Positions 50-34,584 of a stretch of DNA of 34,660 nucleotides are shown one piece after another. Location of the stretch: IMG/VR virus record IMGVR_UViG_3300034682_000115, positions 1 to 34,660 of that record, one strand, 5' to 3'. Each line of letters begins with the position of its first letter. Positions within the stretch are counted from its first letter, which is position 1. A program made the position numbers and the translations under genes. Under the pieces are notes generated by a model, which made no database searches, was not told the origin of the DNA, and worked only from the letters and a program-made list of their open reading frames with translations. This stretch comes from a virus.

Positions 50-127
<78 letters not shown>

Positions 128-195: not shown

Positions 196-1166
196 CACGC
201 ATGAAAGCCTGGATCTACGCGCCAGGTCCTGACCTCCTCCCGACCTGCCTACCTCGCGATTTATGTTGAGGGCTGGGAAAACGGTAATTTTGGTAATTTC
301 TTTTTTGTCCCCGCCAGAAAGCCTTATAGATCAAGGACTTACGTCAGATTCTTAAAGGTAATAATAGGGTAATTTCTTAGTAATCCAATTACCTTTTGAA
401 GGGGTCAGATAGCCCCTTTGCGAAACCCTTTAAATTCAAGGGCTTACGAAAAAATTACCTTTTCAATTACCCTAAATTACCTTTTCAGGTAATCGCTGAA
501 AGCCACGTAAACCAAGGGCTCCAGGCCGATTACACAACCCAATTACCGAAATTACCTTTTTCCCAGCCCTCAGGTGAAAATGGCACCCTGCCAGACCTGG
601 GAAAAACTCGTTTTGAGCCTGGCCTACCCCCCGTAACAAGCGTTCAGCCCCCCCGTAACAAGCACTGAAAGACGTGCAGCGTTGTGCAACGCGGCGAGCT
701 ACCCTAATCGGCTGGAAAGCCCCAGCCAGTCTGCCGTTCAACAAGCTGTGCCGCTTCGCCTGCCGATCACCTGGTGAGCTGCCGCCGGAGCACTGCCGAT
801 TTGGAAAACTGGGCATTTCGGCCTTTTTTCAATTTTTCGTCCAAGCGGGCCGGGGCTTGCAGCGATCGACACGCAAGCGCCTACCTGCGGCCCGCCGTGC
901 AACGCGATGACATTTTTTTGCAAAACCTTGCACGCTGTGCAATGGCCACTGCCCTGCGCAAGCCCACGAACGGCGTGGCCTGGAGGTGTGGTTGCATCAC
1001 CCTTGGTGTTTGCACAAAAAAGGAACACAAAGCCCGTCGGCGGGAGGGGGATAAGTGATTTTTCGGTCGATTTTTTTTTGCGGTGAGGTCTTTCTGGTGG
1101 CCCTGGTTGTTCGGACTTCGCGTCAGCAACCGGTGCCCCAGTTCACCTCGTCACTTTCTGACGGGC

Positions 1167-1197: not shown

Positions 1198-1395
1198 CCG
1201 CAAGCCAGTTAGTGGCTGGCTTGCTGTCCTCACGGAAGCTGTCAACGTCATCAGAGTTTACGTCCGAAAAAGGAACGACGCAAACCGTACCGGACAGGTG
1301 CAACGGGTGCGTGAGCTCCAGCAAATAGGATACCATCCCCTCCGCTCGGTTCTGTGAGAGCCGGTTGCATCCTAAGGGTGGGTAGGAGTATTCGC

Positions 1396-1440
1396 CCCCT
1401 CAACGCGGCCTAGTAACCCGCGCCGGATGCGATTGAGGGG
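1396..1440 (+). ncRNA. nested stem-loop, possible structured RNA
   Basis: CCCCTCAA (1396-1403) pairs with TTGAGGGG (1433-1440), and directly inside it CGCGG (1404-1408) pairs with CCGCG (1418-1422). The near-repeat CCTCACGGAAGCTGTCAACG (1228-1247) and its one-base-longer copy (1455-1475) bracket this structure. No known RNA family is recognised, and strand is chosen only because nearby genes run in the plus direction. Confidence 0.3.
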
Positions 1441-1543
1441 CCATCAACCGGCCTCCTCACGGAATGCTGTCAACGAGCGATCCCCAACAGCGTATGTGTT
1501 CCGGAAAAAACGCTGGAGGAAGGTCATTCAGAGGCCTTTAAGT

Positions 1544-1639
1544 ATGAAGAAATTTCTTCGTGCTCTGAGTGGTTTGATGAACCTTTACCGGTGCTTTCGC
1601 CTGTATGAATTCATCCGCGACAACTGGGACGAGTTCTAA
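1544..1639 (+). CDS. 31-residue mini-ORF, possible leader peptide
   Basis: The frame begins with ATG 9 nt after GAGG and encodes MKKFLRALSGLMNLYRCFRL followed by YEFIRDNWDEF, a basic then aromatic-rich peptide. It ends 21 nt before an intrinsic terminator (1661-1692), which itself sits just 25 nt before the next gene. That arrangement suits either a tiny independent accessory gene with its own terminator or a leader peptide in an attenuation device. No family is recognised, and the call rests on ribosome site, stop and terminator positions only. Confidence 0.4.
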   Translation: MKKFLRALSGLMNLYRCFRLYEFIRDNWDEF

Positions 1640-1660
1640 CTAGAACCCTTCTTGGGAGAG

Positions 1661-1692
1661 CCCGCTCTGGTTTGCTCCAGGGCGGGTTTTTT
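1661..1692 (+). terminator. intrinsic terminator between mini-ORF and cargo gene
   Basis: CCCGCTCTGG (1661-1670) pairs with CCAGGGCGGG (1677-1686, one G-U pair) over a TTTGCT loop and is followed by TTTTTT. Only 25 nt separate it from the start of the next gene. No good promoter is visible in that gap, so read-through may control the downstream cargo genes. Confidence 0.85.
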
Positions 1693-1717
1693 ATTGACCG
1701 TATTCAGGGAGATGAAC

Positions 1718-2386
1718 ATGAGCGACAATCCAGTTAAAAAGCTATTGCACTCAATCAACAAAAGCACCCACGTTGCGGACCTACTAGATAAGCTTGGTGA
1801 GGTAGCACTGGATAGATTGTTCGATAACGACATTGTTAAAGAAATCCCAATCATTGGAACCGCAATAGCTTTATTAAAAGCGGGGGACGACTTCAGGGCC
1901 TATGCATTCGTAAAAAAAGTCACTGTCTTTCTTCAGGAAGTAGAGAACGTTTCTCTAGAGGATCGAGACCTTTTTTTCAAAAGGTACTGCGACAACCCCG
2001 AAAAGCTCTCTGAGCTAGGCGAGGCCACTTTGATGGCCCTGGACCGAATCGACCACCCAACGCTTGCTCAAATGTACGGTAGAGCCTTTGCGATAATGCT
2101 CAAAGGAAACGAGCACGCATGGGTGAGCTTTGATCTTCATTCTTTCACAATAAAAAACATGAACCCCTATCTGCTCCGAAACTTAGAGTCATATTATAGA
2201 AGCGAAATGATATGCAGCATTGACACAACCGCAGCCCAAGCGCTTTCCAACTACGGGTTAATTAACGTATCCACGGCACCACGAATTACTAATGACAAGA
2301 AAGCCATGTCCTTGTCTTATGACAAGACAGATTATGGAAAGTTTTTCTATAATCGCATTGTAAAAGGGCTGCCTGCTTATGCATAG
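1718..2386 (+). CDS. AT-rich cargo protein, unknown function (222 aa)
   Basis: The product is a mostly helical, charged cytoplasmic protein. A short hydrophobic helix EIPIIGTAIALLKAG lies near residues 40-55, and a conserved-looking core follows (FVKKVTVFLQEV, then LGEATLMALDRID). The C-terminal part, with ALSNYGLINV and a final GKFFYNRIV, resembles the ends of small proteins seen in bacterial defence and accessory islands. I cannot name the family; a DUF4393/Abi-like relation is only a guess. ATG 1718 is preferred over ATG 1712 because AGGGAG (1706-1711) has proper spacing only for 1718. The gene is visibly richer in A and T than the phage core, a sign of recent acquisition, and heads a three-gene plus-strand block. 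Confidence 0.75.
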   Translation: MSDNPVKKLLHSINKSTHVADLLDKLGEVALDRLFDNDIVKEIPIIGTAIALLKAGDDFRAYAFVKKVTVFLQEVENVSLEDRDLFFKRYCDNPEKLSELGEATLMALDRIDHPTLAQMYGRAFAIMLKGNEHAWVSFDLHSFTIKNMNPYLLRNLESYYRSEMICSIDTTAAQALSNYGLINVSTAPRITNDKKAMSLSYDKTDYGKFFYNRIVKGLPAYA

Positions 2387-2439
2387 CGGGTAGGTTTTAT
2401 CCGAATAAGACTTCAATGAATCAATATTAAGGAAATCGA

Positions 2440-2907
2440 GTGAAAGCATTGTTTTTTGCAGTAATGATCACTTTTGCCGCTAGCGCATCAGCTGAGGACT
2501 CAATCCGCGTAACTACTGAGCTGACCCGAAACGGGGAAATTCTCGACAGCTTCTCCACCTCGACTGCTAACGGTGTCACCGTACCTTATCGCAATGTGCA
2601 GCTTATCAAATACAGGGATGGAGGGAGTAAAAACAAAGTAAAAATTTCGGAGTTAGAGGTTGGAACTACCGGATCTGTCACCCCCCACGTGAGTGGTGAT
2701 AGTATTAGCGTGAGGTTTAATGTGAATTACACAGAGTTGACGCGAATGAATACGGTAAAAAACGCCGGCATCTACATCGACCAACCTCAAACCCAAGGGT
2801 ATCAGCTCTCAACGACGGTCATACTCCCTAGTGGAAAGAAGCGCGAATTCAAATCTTCTGAGGGCGGCGTCGAGTATGTCTACACTATCTCGGCCGCTAG
2901 AAACTGA
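2440..2907 (+). CDS. small exported protein, unknown function (155 aa)
   Basis: The gene starts with GTG at 2440 behind an AAGGA ribosome site. The first 18 residues form a typical Sec signal peptide, MKALFFAVMITFAASASA, with cleavage likely after ASA. The mature 137-residue part is polar and beta-rich (RVTTELTRNGEILDSFST, a VRFNVNYTEL strand) with no cysteines. A periplasmic location is therefore likely. It lies between two cytoplasmic cargo proteins with spacers of 53 and 37 nt, so co-expression is likely. An exported lysogenic product could act in superinfection exclusion or envelope modification, but nothing in the sequence proves that. AT-rich like its neighbours. Confidence 0.75.
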   Translation: MKALFFAVMITFAASASAEDSIRVTTELTRNGEILDSFSTSTANGVTVPYRNVQLIKYRDGGSKNKVKISELEVGTTGSVTPHVSGDSISVRFNVNYTELTRMNTVKNAGIYIDQPQTQGYQLSTTVILPSGKKREFKSSEGGVEYVYTISAARN

Positions 2908-2944
2908 CCAATTAATATACGTTTAGGGATGATCAAATAAAACC

Positions 2945-4369
2945 ATGGCCGATTATTTATATCGATTCCGTCCTACCGAACGGATCCTAGGTATTGGGAA
3001 AGATAATAAACCCATTCCAAGCGAACTTGAAAACCTCCAAATATATCTTTCTCCGCCTGACCAGCTAAACGACCCACTGGAAGGGTATAGAACGATGTAT
3101 TGGTCTGGTGACTTTTTTCTTTGGGAAAACCTTGTTAAGCACTATATATACTGCGCCGTCAACCACTACTTAAGGGCCATGCACTCAGAGTCCGATGAAG
3201 AAATCCCCACCAAAGTCCATGTTTTCTTTACGATACATGACGTAGAACCGGAGATTAGAGATATATGCATTGAGGCATCGTCAAAAGTACTCTCACAAAA
3301 GACGATCAAAGACTATATCAAGCTGATTAGCACAGGCAACAGAGTAGTATACCGACATGAGCTGCTGGCCCATTTAAAAACAATGCATCCGTATATTTTT
3401 AGCGTAGTTAAAGATACATTGATACATCACGACTGGCTTCAATATAACGGCACTAAAAGGCTAAGCCAGGCAGACTACTTGGACATTGTACAGTTTCACC
3501 TGGACAACATCCCCAAGGTCGTGAACGCTACAATTGAGGAAATCTTTACCACCGTAGCATTGATCATGGAGCAGGATGAATTCGCCAACTGCCTAATAAA
3601 CAGTAAGTTTTACACTGATAAAGTACACTATTTTATGTACTCTGGGTTCCCCGGCGCGTTCTGCAAGGCGTTAAATAGCCTCATGATGAATGATTGGTAC
3701 ACCGCTTGCTTCATGAGCGAATGTAGCGATTCGTCATTATGGGGGACCTATGGGGATTCGCATCGTGGCTTATGCCTAAAATATAAAGCGGAAAAAAAGG
3801 GCACCGGTTATACGATCCCTCTTCGCCTGCCCACCCATATGCGCAATGGACAGATAAGAACTGAATATGTGGATGCTGAACTTGAGAAAATGTCGTACAC
3901 TTCCAAGCACGAACAAGCGAATTTTTTTCATTCAATGGATGCTGTCAGCGATCATGATCTAGAAGCCTACTGGTATACCGGCAGCAAAGATCGCCAAGCT
4001 GCGACAATAATAACGAAGGGACGCAGCCCCGAAAGTGTGCGGCAAACAGCTAAGGCAGTTATGCTTACCAAAATGGATGACTGGCGCAAGGAGAACGAGT
4101 ATCGTCTTATCCTCAGCCCAAATACATTTAGTCTTGAAGACAAGAATGACCGCTTTGTTACCTACCCCGCTGAGAGCCTGGACGGCGTAATATTTGGCAT
4201 TAACACTCCCATAGCGATTAAGGCTAAGGTGGCACAGATACTAGCCAAAATCTGCCATGAATCTGGGGCAAAGATAAACGTATACCAAGCGAAATACGAC
4301 GATGAATCGGGAAAAATCACCCATGAAAAACTTAACAAGCAGGACTTAGTGACGATTCTACCTAAGTGA
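2945..4369 (+). CDS. DUF2971-family protein (474 aa)
   Basis: The domain landmarks of DUF2971 are present in order. They are the N-terminal LYRFRPTE and LSPPDQLNDPLEGY (residues 5-48), the central CSDSSLWGTYGDSHRGLCLKY (about 259-280), WRKENEYRLIL (about 380-390) and DGVIFGI near residue 420. The protein is longer than many members (often about 250-320 residues) because of a helical insert at about 50-250. The biochemical function of the family is unknown; members occur scattered in accessory and defence-rich regions. It is the last gene of the AT-rich cargo block and converges on the end of the late operon 45 bp away. Confidence 0.8.
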   Translation: MADYLYRFRPTERILGIGKDNKPIPSELENLQIYLSPPDQLNDPLEGYRTMYWSGDFFLWENLVKHYIYCAVNHYLRAMHSESDEEIPTKVHVFFTIHDVEPEIRDICIEASSKVLSQKTIKDYIKLISTGNRVVYRHELLAHLKTMHPYIFSVVKDTLIHHDWLQYNGTKRLSQADYLDIVQFHLDNIPKVVNATIEEIFTTVALIMEQDEFANCLINSKFYTDKVHYFMYSGFPGAFCKALNSLMMNDWYTACFMSECSDSSLWGTYGDSHRGLCLKYKAEKKGTGYTIPLRLPTHMRNGQIRTEYVDAELEKMSYTSKHEQANFFHSMDAVSDHDLEAYWYTGSKDRQAATIITKGRSPESVRQTAKAVMLTKMDDWRKENEYRLILSPNTFSLEDKNDRFVTYPAESLDGVIFGINTPIAIKAKVAQILAKICHESGAKINVYQAKYDDESGKITHEKLNKQDLVTILPK

Positions 4370-4377
4370 TCAATATT

Positions 4378-4418
4378 TCTAGGGCGTATGCAGTAATAAA
4401 ATGGCTTCTGCGCTCTAG
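4378..4418. terminator. stem-loop between converging transcripts
   Basis: TCTAGGGCG...GCAG pairs imperfectly with CTGCGCTCTAGA across a loop, in the short gap between the DUF2971 gene and the end of the late operon. There is no clear T tract, so terminator function is only plausible. It overlaps the stop codon of the minus-strand spike gene. Confidence 0.3.
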
Positions 4419-5386
4419 AGAGTAATGGATTTTAGTTCTACTAAGAGAGCTGAAGCCGTCGCCGCTTCTGCGGTAAACGTACTCGCTTGCGTGGGGATTG
4501 GAGAAGGTCCATGAGTGTGCGCTGCCAGCTCGGAGGCGATCTGCTCGATCAGGTCTAGCGTGTCACCCAAGACGCGTAGCACATTTACTCCTTCCGACCC
4601 CAGCCAAGTTTTCGGTGCCTGCATACGCTGACTGATGCCAACCACGCTTTTGCGCAGGCCCTGCACCTTTTCCTGCATGTCGCCACCTACCGCAGCATTA
4701 TGGGTCTTGCCAACTACCAGGTTGAGGTCGCGCCCGGTCGCCTGGTGCATATCATCCAGGGCGGCGAATGATGCGGTACCGGCCGAACTGAGCTTGAGCG
4801 CGCCCAACGCCTCTACCTTCTTGATGCCCCCCACCGTCTCAGTCGAGTGGCGCTTCACATCCTGGACATGACTCTGATAGCGCTCGTTGTTGCCCAGGGC
4901 TTCCACCTCCCGCTCGATAGCCTGGTCCCGGATCTTGCCATCGGTCTGGCGCAACCAGTTGCCGTCCGCGTCGACGCGCTGCTGCACGGCATCGCTGTGC
5001 TGCCAGATCTGGTCGCCCTGGGGCACCTTGGGCAGGCTCAGGCCGTGCGGCAAAATCGACTGGATGTAGGGGTGGCTGGGCGAGCCATAGGCGAAGCACA
5101 CCACAACCCGGGTGCCCTCATGCGGGAACGCGAACATGCCCATTTCATCGCCACCACTGGGCAACGGCAGCGGCACACCGGCGAGGATCGGCAGCGCCGG
5201 ATCCGGCTCACCGTCCTGAGCCAGAACCTCGATGTCGACCGCGTAACGCGGCCGGAAGTCATCACACAGGCCGGCGCCGGCCGGCGCGTCCGGAACGGCG
5301 ACCACCCTGGCAAAGCGCGGCAGGTGATAAGCGCCGGTGAGTTCGGGGAATTGGCGCTCCACGCTGCGCTTTATTGCGTCGTCCAT
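4415..5386 (-). CDS. baseplate spike protein (gpV-like, 323 aa)
   Basis: This is likely the central spike that punctures the outer membrane. The N-terminal half contains an OB-fold-like region with PHEGTRVVVCFAYGSPSHPY (residues about 89-108), typical of gpV/gp5/VgrG baseplate proteins. A repetitive, charged beta-helix-type segment follows (IREREVEALGNNERY, VVGKTHNAAVGGDMQEKVQG), where VgrG-like spikes build their needle. The C-terminus has LAAHTHGPSPIPT, a histidine-containing tip motif common in this family. It is the last gene of the late operon and overlaps the hub gene by 16 nt. Confidence 0.8.
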   Translation of the reverse strand: MDDAIKRSVERQFPELTGAYHLPRFARVVAVPDAPAGAGLCDDFRPRYAVDIEVLAQDGEPDPALPILAGVPLPLPSGGDEMGMFAFPHEGTRVVVCFAYGSPSHPYIQSILPHGLSLPKVPQGDQIWQHSDAVQQRVDADGNWLRQTDGKIRDQAIEREVEALGNNERYQSHVQDVKRHSTETVGGIKKVEALGALKLSSAGTASFAALDDMHQATGRDLNLVVGKTHNAAVGGDMQEKVQGLRKSVVGISQRMQAPKTWLGSEGVNVLRVLGDTLDLIEQIASELAAHTHGPSPIPTQASTFTAEAATASALLVELKSITL

Positions 5387-33772: not shown

Positions 33773-34195
33773 TCAGCGTACGGCCCGCGCCCGCAAGGCC
33801 ATTACCACTTTTGCTGAAAGCCCTTGAATATCGTCATTGTGAAACACTAGGTCGATTCGATACCCCTGCGTCTCCGCGTCCAAATGTTCCAGGTTGTTGA
33901 GCAAAAAATAATATTTGCCCTGGTAAGCCGCGGCGAGATCAGCGGCAAGGCTACGAGCCGCCTCACCAGGCGTGCTTAAGGTCCATTCAATAACCGCGGC
34001 GAACCGTTGCTCAGGAGTAGGAGGATGCTCTCCATTAACCTCATCCAGCACAAACTCGTTGTAGAGCTTCGCACCGACCTCCGGGTCTCCTGCAGGGTTG
34101 CCCGGGCAGAGTCTGGGCTCCCAGGGAATCACGTAGGTCGATTGGCCTAAGACGTCTTGCAGGACGTAATCCGAAGGCTCTACCAAGCGTTGCAT
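33773..34195 (-). CDS. unknown protein, 140 aa
   Basis: ATG 34195 (MQRLVEPSDYVLQDVLGQST) is favoured by TGGAG eight bases upstream; an in-frame ATG nine codons earlier (34222) is possible. It includes VIPWEPRLCPGNPAGDPEVG and later AAYQGKYYFLLNNLEHLDAE, VFHNDDIQGLSAKVVM. No signal peptide, no recognised family. It has a separate ribosome site and lies next to attR. Confidence 0.55.
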   Translation of the reverse strand: MQRLVEPSDYVLQDVLGQSTYVIPWEPRLCPGNPAGDPEVGAKLYNEFVLDEVNGEHPPTPEQRFAAVIEWTLSTPGEAARSLAADLAAAYQGKYYFLLNNLEHLDAETQGYRIDLVFHNDDIQGLSAKVVMALRARAVR

Positions 34196-34533
34196 GGCAA
34201 TGGCTCCAGGTAAAGATTGCATGGTAGCGCATCCCTAGCCCCGAGGGAGGTGAAGGAAAATGGCGGCCAGACTATCTTTTCCGGTCCGCTCTGGAGCCCA
34301 TCCAGGGCGTAACCAAGGTGCGCAGGTAACACTTGAAGAATAGAGGCAGAGAGGTGCTAGAAGGTTCAGAACGGTTCTGCGGAAGCGTTGACTTTTGGCG
34401 GCCTCACTCATTTCCCAACTCCACAGAACCACGTAATAAGTGATGGCCGCGTCAACAAGCATAGGGTGTCCACACATAAGCCACGTAACAAGAAAATCTA
34501 TAAGCCATTGATTTAAATATTAAAAGCATCTTC
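34196..34533. other. attR-side interval without a supported gene
   Basis: No supported gene is seen. A minus-strand open frame (34235-34477) has no ribosome site or recognisable motif. The segment holds the candidate arm sites 34431-34440, 34450-34459 and 34483-34492, and then AT-rich sequence up to the att core. Confidence 0.5.
34431..34492. promoter_or_regulatory. candidate integrase arm-type sites, attR side
   Basis: ACGTAATAAG (34431-34440), CGTCAACAAG (34450-34459) and ACGTAACAAG (34483-34492) share one motif and orientation, ending 41 bp from the core. The exact copy ACGTAACAAG also lies at 186-195 on the other side. This symmetry supports integrase binding; it is inferred. Confidence 0.5.
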
Positions 34534-34580
34534 CTTGTAATCAGTAGGTCCCGGGTTCGACTCCTGGTGCCGGCACCATA
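34534..34580. repeat. attR core (47-bp direct repeat)
   Basis: An exact copy of 81-127: the tRNA-Thr 3' part from the anticodon loop on, CTTGTAATCAGTAGG to GGCACCATA. No 5' tRNA half precedes it, so it is a remnant and not a gene. It is the right border of the prophage. Confidence 0.93.
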
Positions 34581-34584
34581 CAAA

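Follow-up and report, generated by a model that had tools for sequence, protein, structure and literature searches.

P2-like phages of Escherichia coli carry a cos-proximal anti-phage hotspot between gpA and gpQ, in which non-defence cargo is also found (Rousset et al. 2022, PMC9122126). A similar cargo slot is described here in P2-like phages of Pseudomonas, between cos and the tail gene D. The window, meaning the whole 34,660-nucleotide stretch of viral DNA that was analysed (positions 1 to 34,660 of IMG/VR record IMGVR_UViG_3300034682_000115), is an intact P2-like Pseudomonas prophage with both attachment ends present. Its slot holds three genes, called A, B and C, together with a small cassette around a micro-gene, S. 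The features are the following:

50..125, plus strand: tRNA-Thr, attL (ARAGORN), with a second copy of its 3' part at the right end (about 34536-34582)
890..1085, plus strand: conserved cos region, the outer border of the slot (blastn matches in about 75 Pseudomonas P2-like prophages)
1392..1543, plus strand: structured leader of S (covariance model, 8 loci)
1544..1639, plus strand: gene S, 31-aa protein MKKFLRALSGLMNLYRCFRLYEFIRDNWDEF; 31-36-aa homologues at the same model position in L001, L073 and L186-L190
1655..1697, plus strand: intrinsic terminator ending the S transcript, GCCCGCTCTGG...CCAGGGCGGGTTTTTT
1718..2386, plus strand: gene A, 222 aa, helical, with a winged-helix-like part predicted at the C-terminus
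2440..2907, plus strand: gene B, 155 aa, exported, similar to a portion of the secretin beta-domain
2945..4369, plus strand: gene C, 474-aa DUF2971 protein, PADLOC candidate PDC-S31
4415..5386, minus strand: late gene D (tail), the inner border of the slot; 63-81% identity to D of L001, UFJF_PfPro and phi3

An exact 24-mer of the tRNA-Thr 3' part at 91-114 occurs again at 34544-34567 (chance expectation 0), which confirms the attL edge assigned in an earlier note on this DNA. About 0.8 kb, plus a conserved element at about 890-1085, lies between attL and the block. This element is read as cos because it is common to about 75 related prophages and lies at either terminus of the linear genome of UFJF_PfPro. 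The A-B-C block fills the space from cos to D. It had been described as three A+T-rich genes encoding proteins of 222, 155 and 474 aa, situated outside the late operon, and this description holds: all three open reading frames were found at those lengths, the block has 44.4% GC versus 62.1% for the window to its right, and it represents variable cargo between cos and D. The left edge, placed at 1544, is a real ORF start, but it belongs to the 31-aa S, and the 222-aa gene A begins at 1718. Further cargo may also be encoded near attR, where two ORFs of 149 and 80 aa (33773-34477, minus strand) lie beyond the phage core in DNA of lower GC content.

Eighty D-bearing loci were retrieved, and 74 cos-D slots were measured. 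The slots of these related prophages are 0.8-5.5 kb long, with a mean GC of 46.6% versus 61.3% for the adjoining core. In 73 of the 74, the GC content lies more than five points under that of the phage's own core, so that low GC characterises the slot in general and is not a special feature of this prophage. PADLOC assigned the 108 slot proteins to AbiLi (8), AriA of PARIS (8), PtuA of Septu (7) and HEC-01A (7), counts that overlap because related ATPase models cross-match. Pfam domains among the same proteins include AAA_21, GmrSD, KAP, RloB, SIR2_2, AbiJ and others, as well as two non-defence types, acyltransferases and 2OG oxygenases. Across the 74 slots, variable cargo with many homologues of known defence genes lies by cos between conserved phage genes. 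The cos-D slot is a defence-type hotspot, and turnover of its contents is seen directly.

The cos-D slot of UFJF_PfPro (L006:30942-32036) carries an annotated glycosyltransferase and that of phi3 (L007:31606-32220) an annotated HicAB. An ORF of ~98 aa recurs beside cos on the D-ward side (L010, L028, L034, L052, L058, L062 and others) and may be a conserved phage gene. A second cargo slot was observed in another P2-like lineage, in the gap between gpS- and gpV-like genes (L118, L119, L120, L161, L168, L170-L182). It is used by A-type genes, C-type genes and, in L172, Septu.

The block probably consists of lysogeny genes (morons) that were acquired separately and stacked in the cos-D cargo hotspot of Pseudomonas P2-like phages, and not of a three-gene system. 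The position of the slot, its borders, its turnover and the independent distribution of A, B and C are all direct observations. In the closest relative of the prophage, IMG/VR contig 2506783021_000004 (L001), the leader and S are followed by A (92%) and B (80%), and these directly by D; a search of its record found C to be absent. The leader, S, A and B are thus one segment common to both prophages, and of the two only the window has C, between B and D. Single-protein scans of genome and viral collections yielded few loci. The earlier note had proposed a search for co-occurrence, and among 399 Pseudomonas genomes homologues of A (9 genomes), B (5) and C (10) were never found together, no genome carrying more than one of them. 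This is the outcome that the note itself had named as refuting its proposal. Since each gene is rare, chance alone would be expected to leave the three sets of genomes without overlap (P 0.79-0.89), and the result therefore establishes only that each of A, B and C occurs without the others. On this distribution, together with the lack of C in L001, an obligate A+B+C unit was rejected.

The DUF2971 assignment proposed for C is upheld by its match to PF11185 (24.5 bits versus a Pfam cut-off of 22), and PADLOC places the protein in PDC-S31 (E 5e-18), where the PDC label denotes a candidate system. Full-length relatives share 25-33% identity. The motifs YRFR, LNDPxEG, WGxYGDxHxGxCL and WxxExEYRL are kept with few departures in 20 diverse full-length C-type sequences. 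In the AlphaFold model (pLDDT 83), ~190 mostly helical residues separate the conserved N- and C-terminal parts. Relatives of C occupy the cos-D slot in 11 other prophages (L049, L084, L128, L130, L126 in degraded form, L151, L152, L154, L155, L156, L159) and the gpS-gpV slot in L161 and L168, and they adjoin ThsB of Thoeris (L127, E 4e-161) and PDC-S20 (L152, E 4e-89). C-type genes are thus found near defence genes or solitary in P2-like slots. Judged by this association, the most likely function of C is that of an anti-phage protein acting as a single gene. A full-text literature search returned no experimental report on DUF2971, the mention there being an annotation paper. An ADP-ribosyltransferase-like fold, suggested by the motifs of C, was rejected: Foldseek found nothing below E 0.1 in the PDB or BFVD, and a PDB profile search nothing relevant. 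As Foldseek gives no PDB relative of the model of either A or C, an enzymatic activity of these proteins is unsupported.

Protein A has no match of note in Pfam, PADLOC or NCBIfam, and none that is significant in PHROGs. Its AlphaFold model, of moderate confidence (pLDDT 69.5), consists of helices apart from a beta-hairpin close to the end, an order reminiscent of a winged helix. The winged-helix reading is based on this order of secondary structure and on weak PadR matches. A hydrophobic stretch covers approximately residues 38-57, where model confidence is low. Assignment to a known fold was tried by profile search and by Foldseek, and neither found a PDB match. Relatives of A are mostly solitary and lie on the opposite strand, in the gpS-gpV gap of other P2-like prophages; one is located in a cos-D slot (L117, 60%) and another adjoins Septu PtuA/PtuB (L172). 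Compared with L001, A differs by 45 synonymous and 17 replacement codons, which indicates purifying selection. A is a P2-phage cargo family, usually solitary and without a family name. That it is used repeatedly as solitary phage cargo on the reverse strand suggests that A has a function in the lysogen.

The claim that the 155-aa protein is exported agrees with the Sec-type signal peptide of B, MKALFFAVMITFAASASA. The similarity of B to the secretin domain PF00263 (E 4e-5) scores 23.7 bits, under the gathering score of 27.5, and is seen in three of six relatives at E 0.003-0.09. Its best PDB profile matches, the secretins BfpB and PilQ, are weak (0.016-0.095), and Pfam gives no N-domain match. 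B was rejected as a true secretin, being under the PF00263 cut-off and aligning to one PilN sequence in hhalign with a probability of 0.5%. Relatives are carried on Pseudomonas and Stenotrophomonas plasmids. The chromosomal ones are divergent and lie between an SNF2 helicase gene and a pilL-pilN-pilO type IVb pilus operon (L136:6570-7094, L137:6703-7212). These pil surroundings of some relatives back what is a guess, namely that B might interfere with secretins or type IV pili.

With the genes taken as separate acquisitions, C would act on its own as an anti-phage protein, by abortive infection or exclusion, and the ~190 mostly helical residues inside it may serve to sense infection. Gene A, whose product consists of helices with one hydrophobic stretch and a winged-helix-like end, would likewise serve exclusion as a solitary gene. 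B would be a periplasmic mimic of a secretin strand that perturbs the pores of secretins or type IV pili. The most serious rival, although we consider it unlikely, is that the genes provide host fitness (envelope change, conversion) or are neutral passengers, and are not directed against phages. It would fit the non-defence cargo known in P2-like hotspots (PMC9122126), the glycosyltransferase of UFJF_PfPro, the acyltransferases and 2OG oxygenases of other slots, and a protein B that is exported and linked elsewhere to pilus genes. However, C belongs to a defence-candidate family whose members lie next to Thoeris and further defence genes at unrelated sites, and A is under purifying selection.

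A two-gene envelope or exclusion unit of A and B (with S), next to which C would be an unrelated single-gene defence protein, is improbable. Such a partnership is conceivable because A and B are joined in both phages of the lineage, where the order S-A-B is kept and only C differs. On the other hand, about 25 other loci have A but no B, one of them being L117, where A lies in the same slot, and B is found apart from A on plasmids and in integrative elements. B has also changed faster than A relative to L001 (30/156 versus 17/223 replacement codons). Very improbable is the single defence or conversion module of the earlier note, in which a periplasmic B would work with cytoplasmic A and C: the genes are adjacent on one strand with short gaps, the A-B pair is kept in L001 and an A relative lies by a DUF2971 gene in L125, but C is missing in L001, the homologues share 0 of 399 genomes and the typical surroundings differ for each gene. 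What stands of that proposal is the defence-type cargo, since the slot is rich in defence homologues and C falls in the candidate family PDC-S31; the joint unit does not stand. In L125 (L125:7888-9452), an A-type gene and a short DUF2971 (PDC-S31) gene stand side by side between the gpS- and gpV-like genes of another P2-like prophage, so that A-type and C-type proteins could sometimes cooperate.

Upstream of gene A, positions 1392-1700 form a separate cassette, made of a structured leader, the 31-aa ORF S and a terminator, and found in 8 loci. The covariance model of the leader was built on five sequences and recovered three loci outside its building set (L073, L189, L190; E 1e-12 to 1e-14). 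A 33-36-aa ORF begins at the matching position in each of these, and L073 is itself a cos-D slot. Proteins of 32-33 aa are encoded at the S position in the distant loci L186-L188, and the leader was located again when the same 399 Pseudomonas genomes were searched at the DNA level. In the eight-sequence alignment, which was fitted to the model and favours structure, 95.1% of the pair cells are paired, and 24 cells carry double changes versus 9.3 in shuffles; this signal collapses on a one-column slide. The single-sequence fold is unremarkable (z -1.6), the structure being visible only by comparison. A known RNA family was sought in Rfam, with no match to the leader.

Compensatory changes are present in the last hairpin of the leader, directly before the S start codon. 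In this hairpin, AAGGUC pairs with GAGGCCUU, the site of the likely ribosome-binding site. The leader is predicted to sequester the ribosome-binding site of S, and the combination of a small protein with a sequestering leader would match that of type I toxins. The stem of the S terminator is kept in five of five aligned loci and its T-run in four of five. Where readable, the genes downstream of S are convergent (L073, L199, L200), which makes a role of S as a leader peptide for A unlikely. The terminator after S and these convergent genes indicate that S is a stand-alone unit. The protein family (31-36 aa) shares a consensus end, Y-x-F-I/L-R-D-x-W/F-D-D.

C4 antisense RNA is a phage-immunity element. 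In L186, a C4 antisense RNA, its a1/b1 targets and an isrK-like match (L186:883-1088, minus strand) are located just downstream of the S cassette, and this neighbourhood suggests a phage immunity region. At the S locus of the window, no Rfam antisense family was found, only sub-threshold RNAI-like matches. Type I toxin genes with sequestered ribosome-binding sites are known from the tisB and hok class, and by analogy a type I toxin-like role of S is plausible. We tentatively propose, as a possibility, an undescribed class of micro-genes in Pseudomonas prophages and other apparently mobile elements. Its members would combine a 31-36-aa protein with a conserved, covarying ~150-nt leader whose last hairpin hides the ribosome-binding site, and would act as type I toxin-like or infection-triggered killers; A would add an unnamed family of solitary P2-phage exclusion genes.

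The block as such is ordinary in kind, being P2-like hotspot cargo, and the S cassette is its newest element. Well-bounded, AT-rich defence-type hotspots are now located in Pseudomonas P2-like phages, at cos-D and also at gpS-gpV, and the single genes of a slot can be cloned and assayed one by one. Three single-gene candidates come out of the block: the A family, which has no name, the DUF2971 proteins of the long type, and B with its resemblance to secretins. The cassette of leader and micro-protein is new to Rfam and has good statistical support, from covariation and from the held-out loci.

In comparison with described systems, S resembles type I toxins such as tisB and hok in being a stand-alone micro-gene on mobile elements, with a terminator and a structured leader in which the likely ribosome-binding site is paired. 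It differs in that its peptide is only mildly hydrophobic and its leader has no Rfam match, and it is a candidate only. B resembles part of the beta-domain of the secretins PilN, BfpB and PilQ, and its relatives adjoin an operon with a secretin gene; at 155 aa and without N domains, however, it is too short for a channel subunit. C has the DUF2971/PDC-S31 residues towards both ends of its chain, whereas it and its full-length relatives contain ~190 extra, mostly helical residues in the middle, and short DUF2971 members (L125, 244 aa) are about half its length. The slot itself extends from cos to D, and not from gpA to gpQ as in the E. coli P2 hotspot, and the protection given by its cargo is putative. 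Like that hotspot, it is a region of ~1-5 kb by cos with quick turnover, often more than one system and many defence genes.
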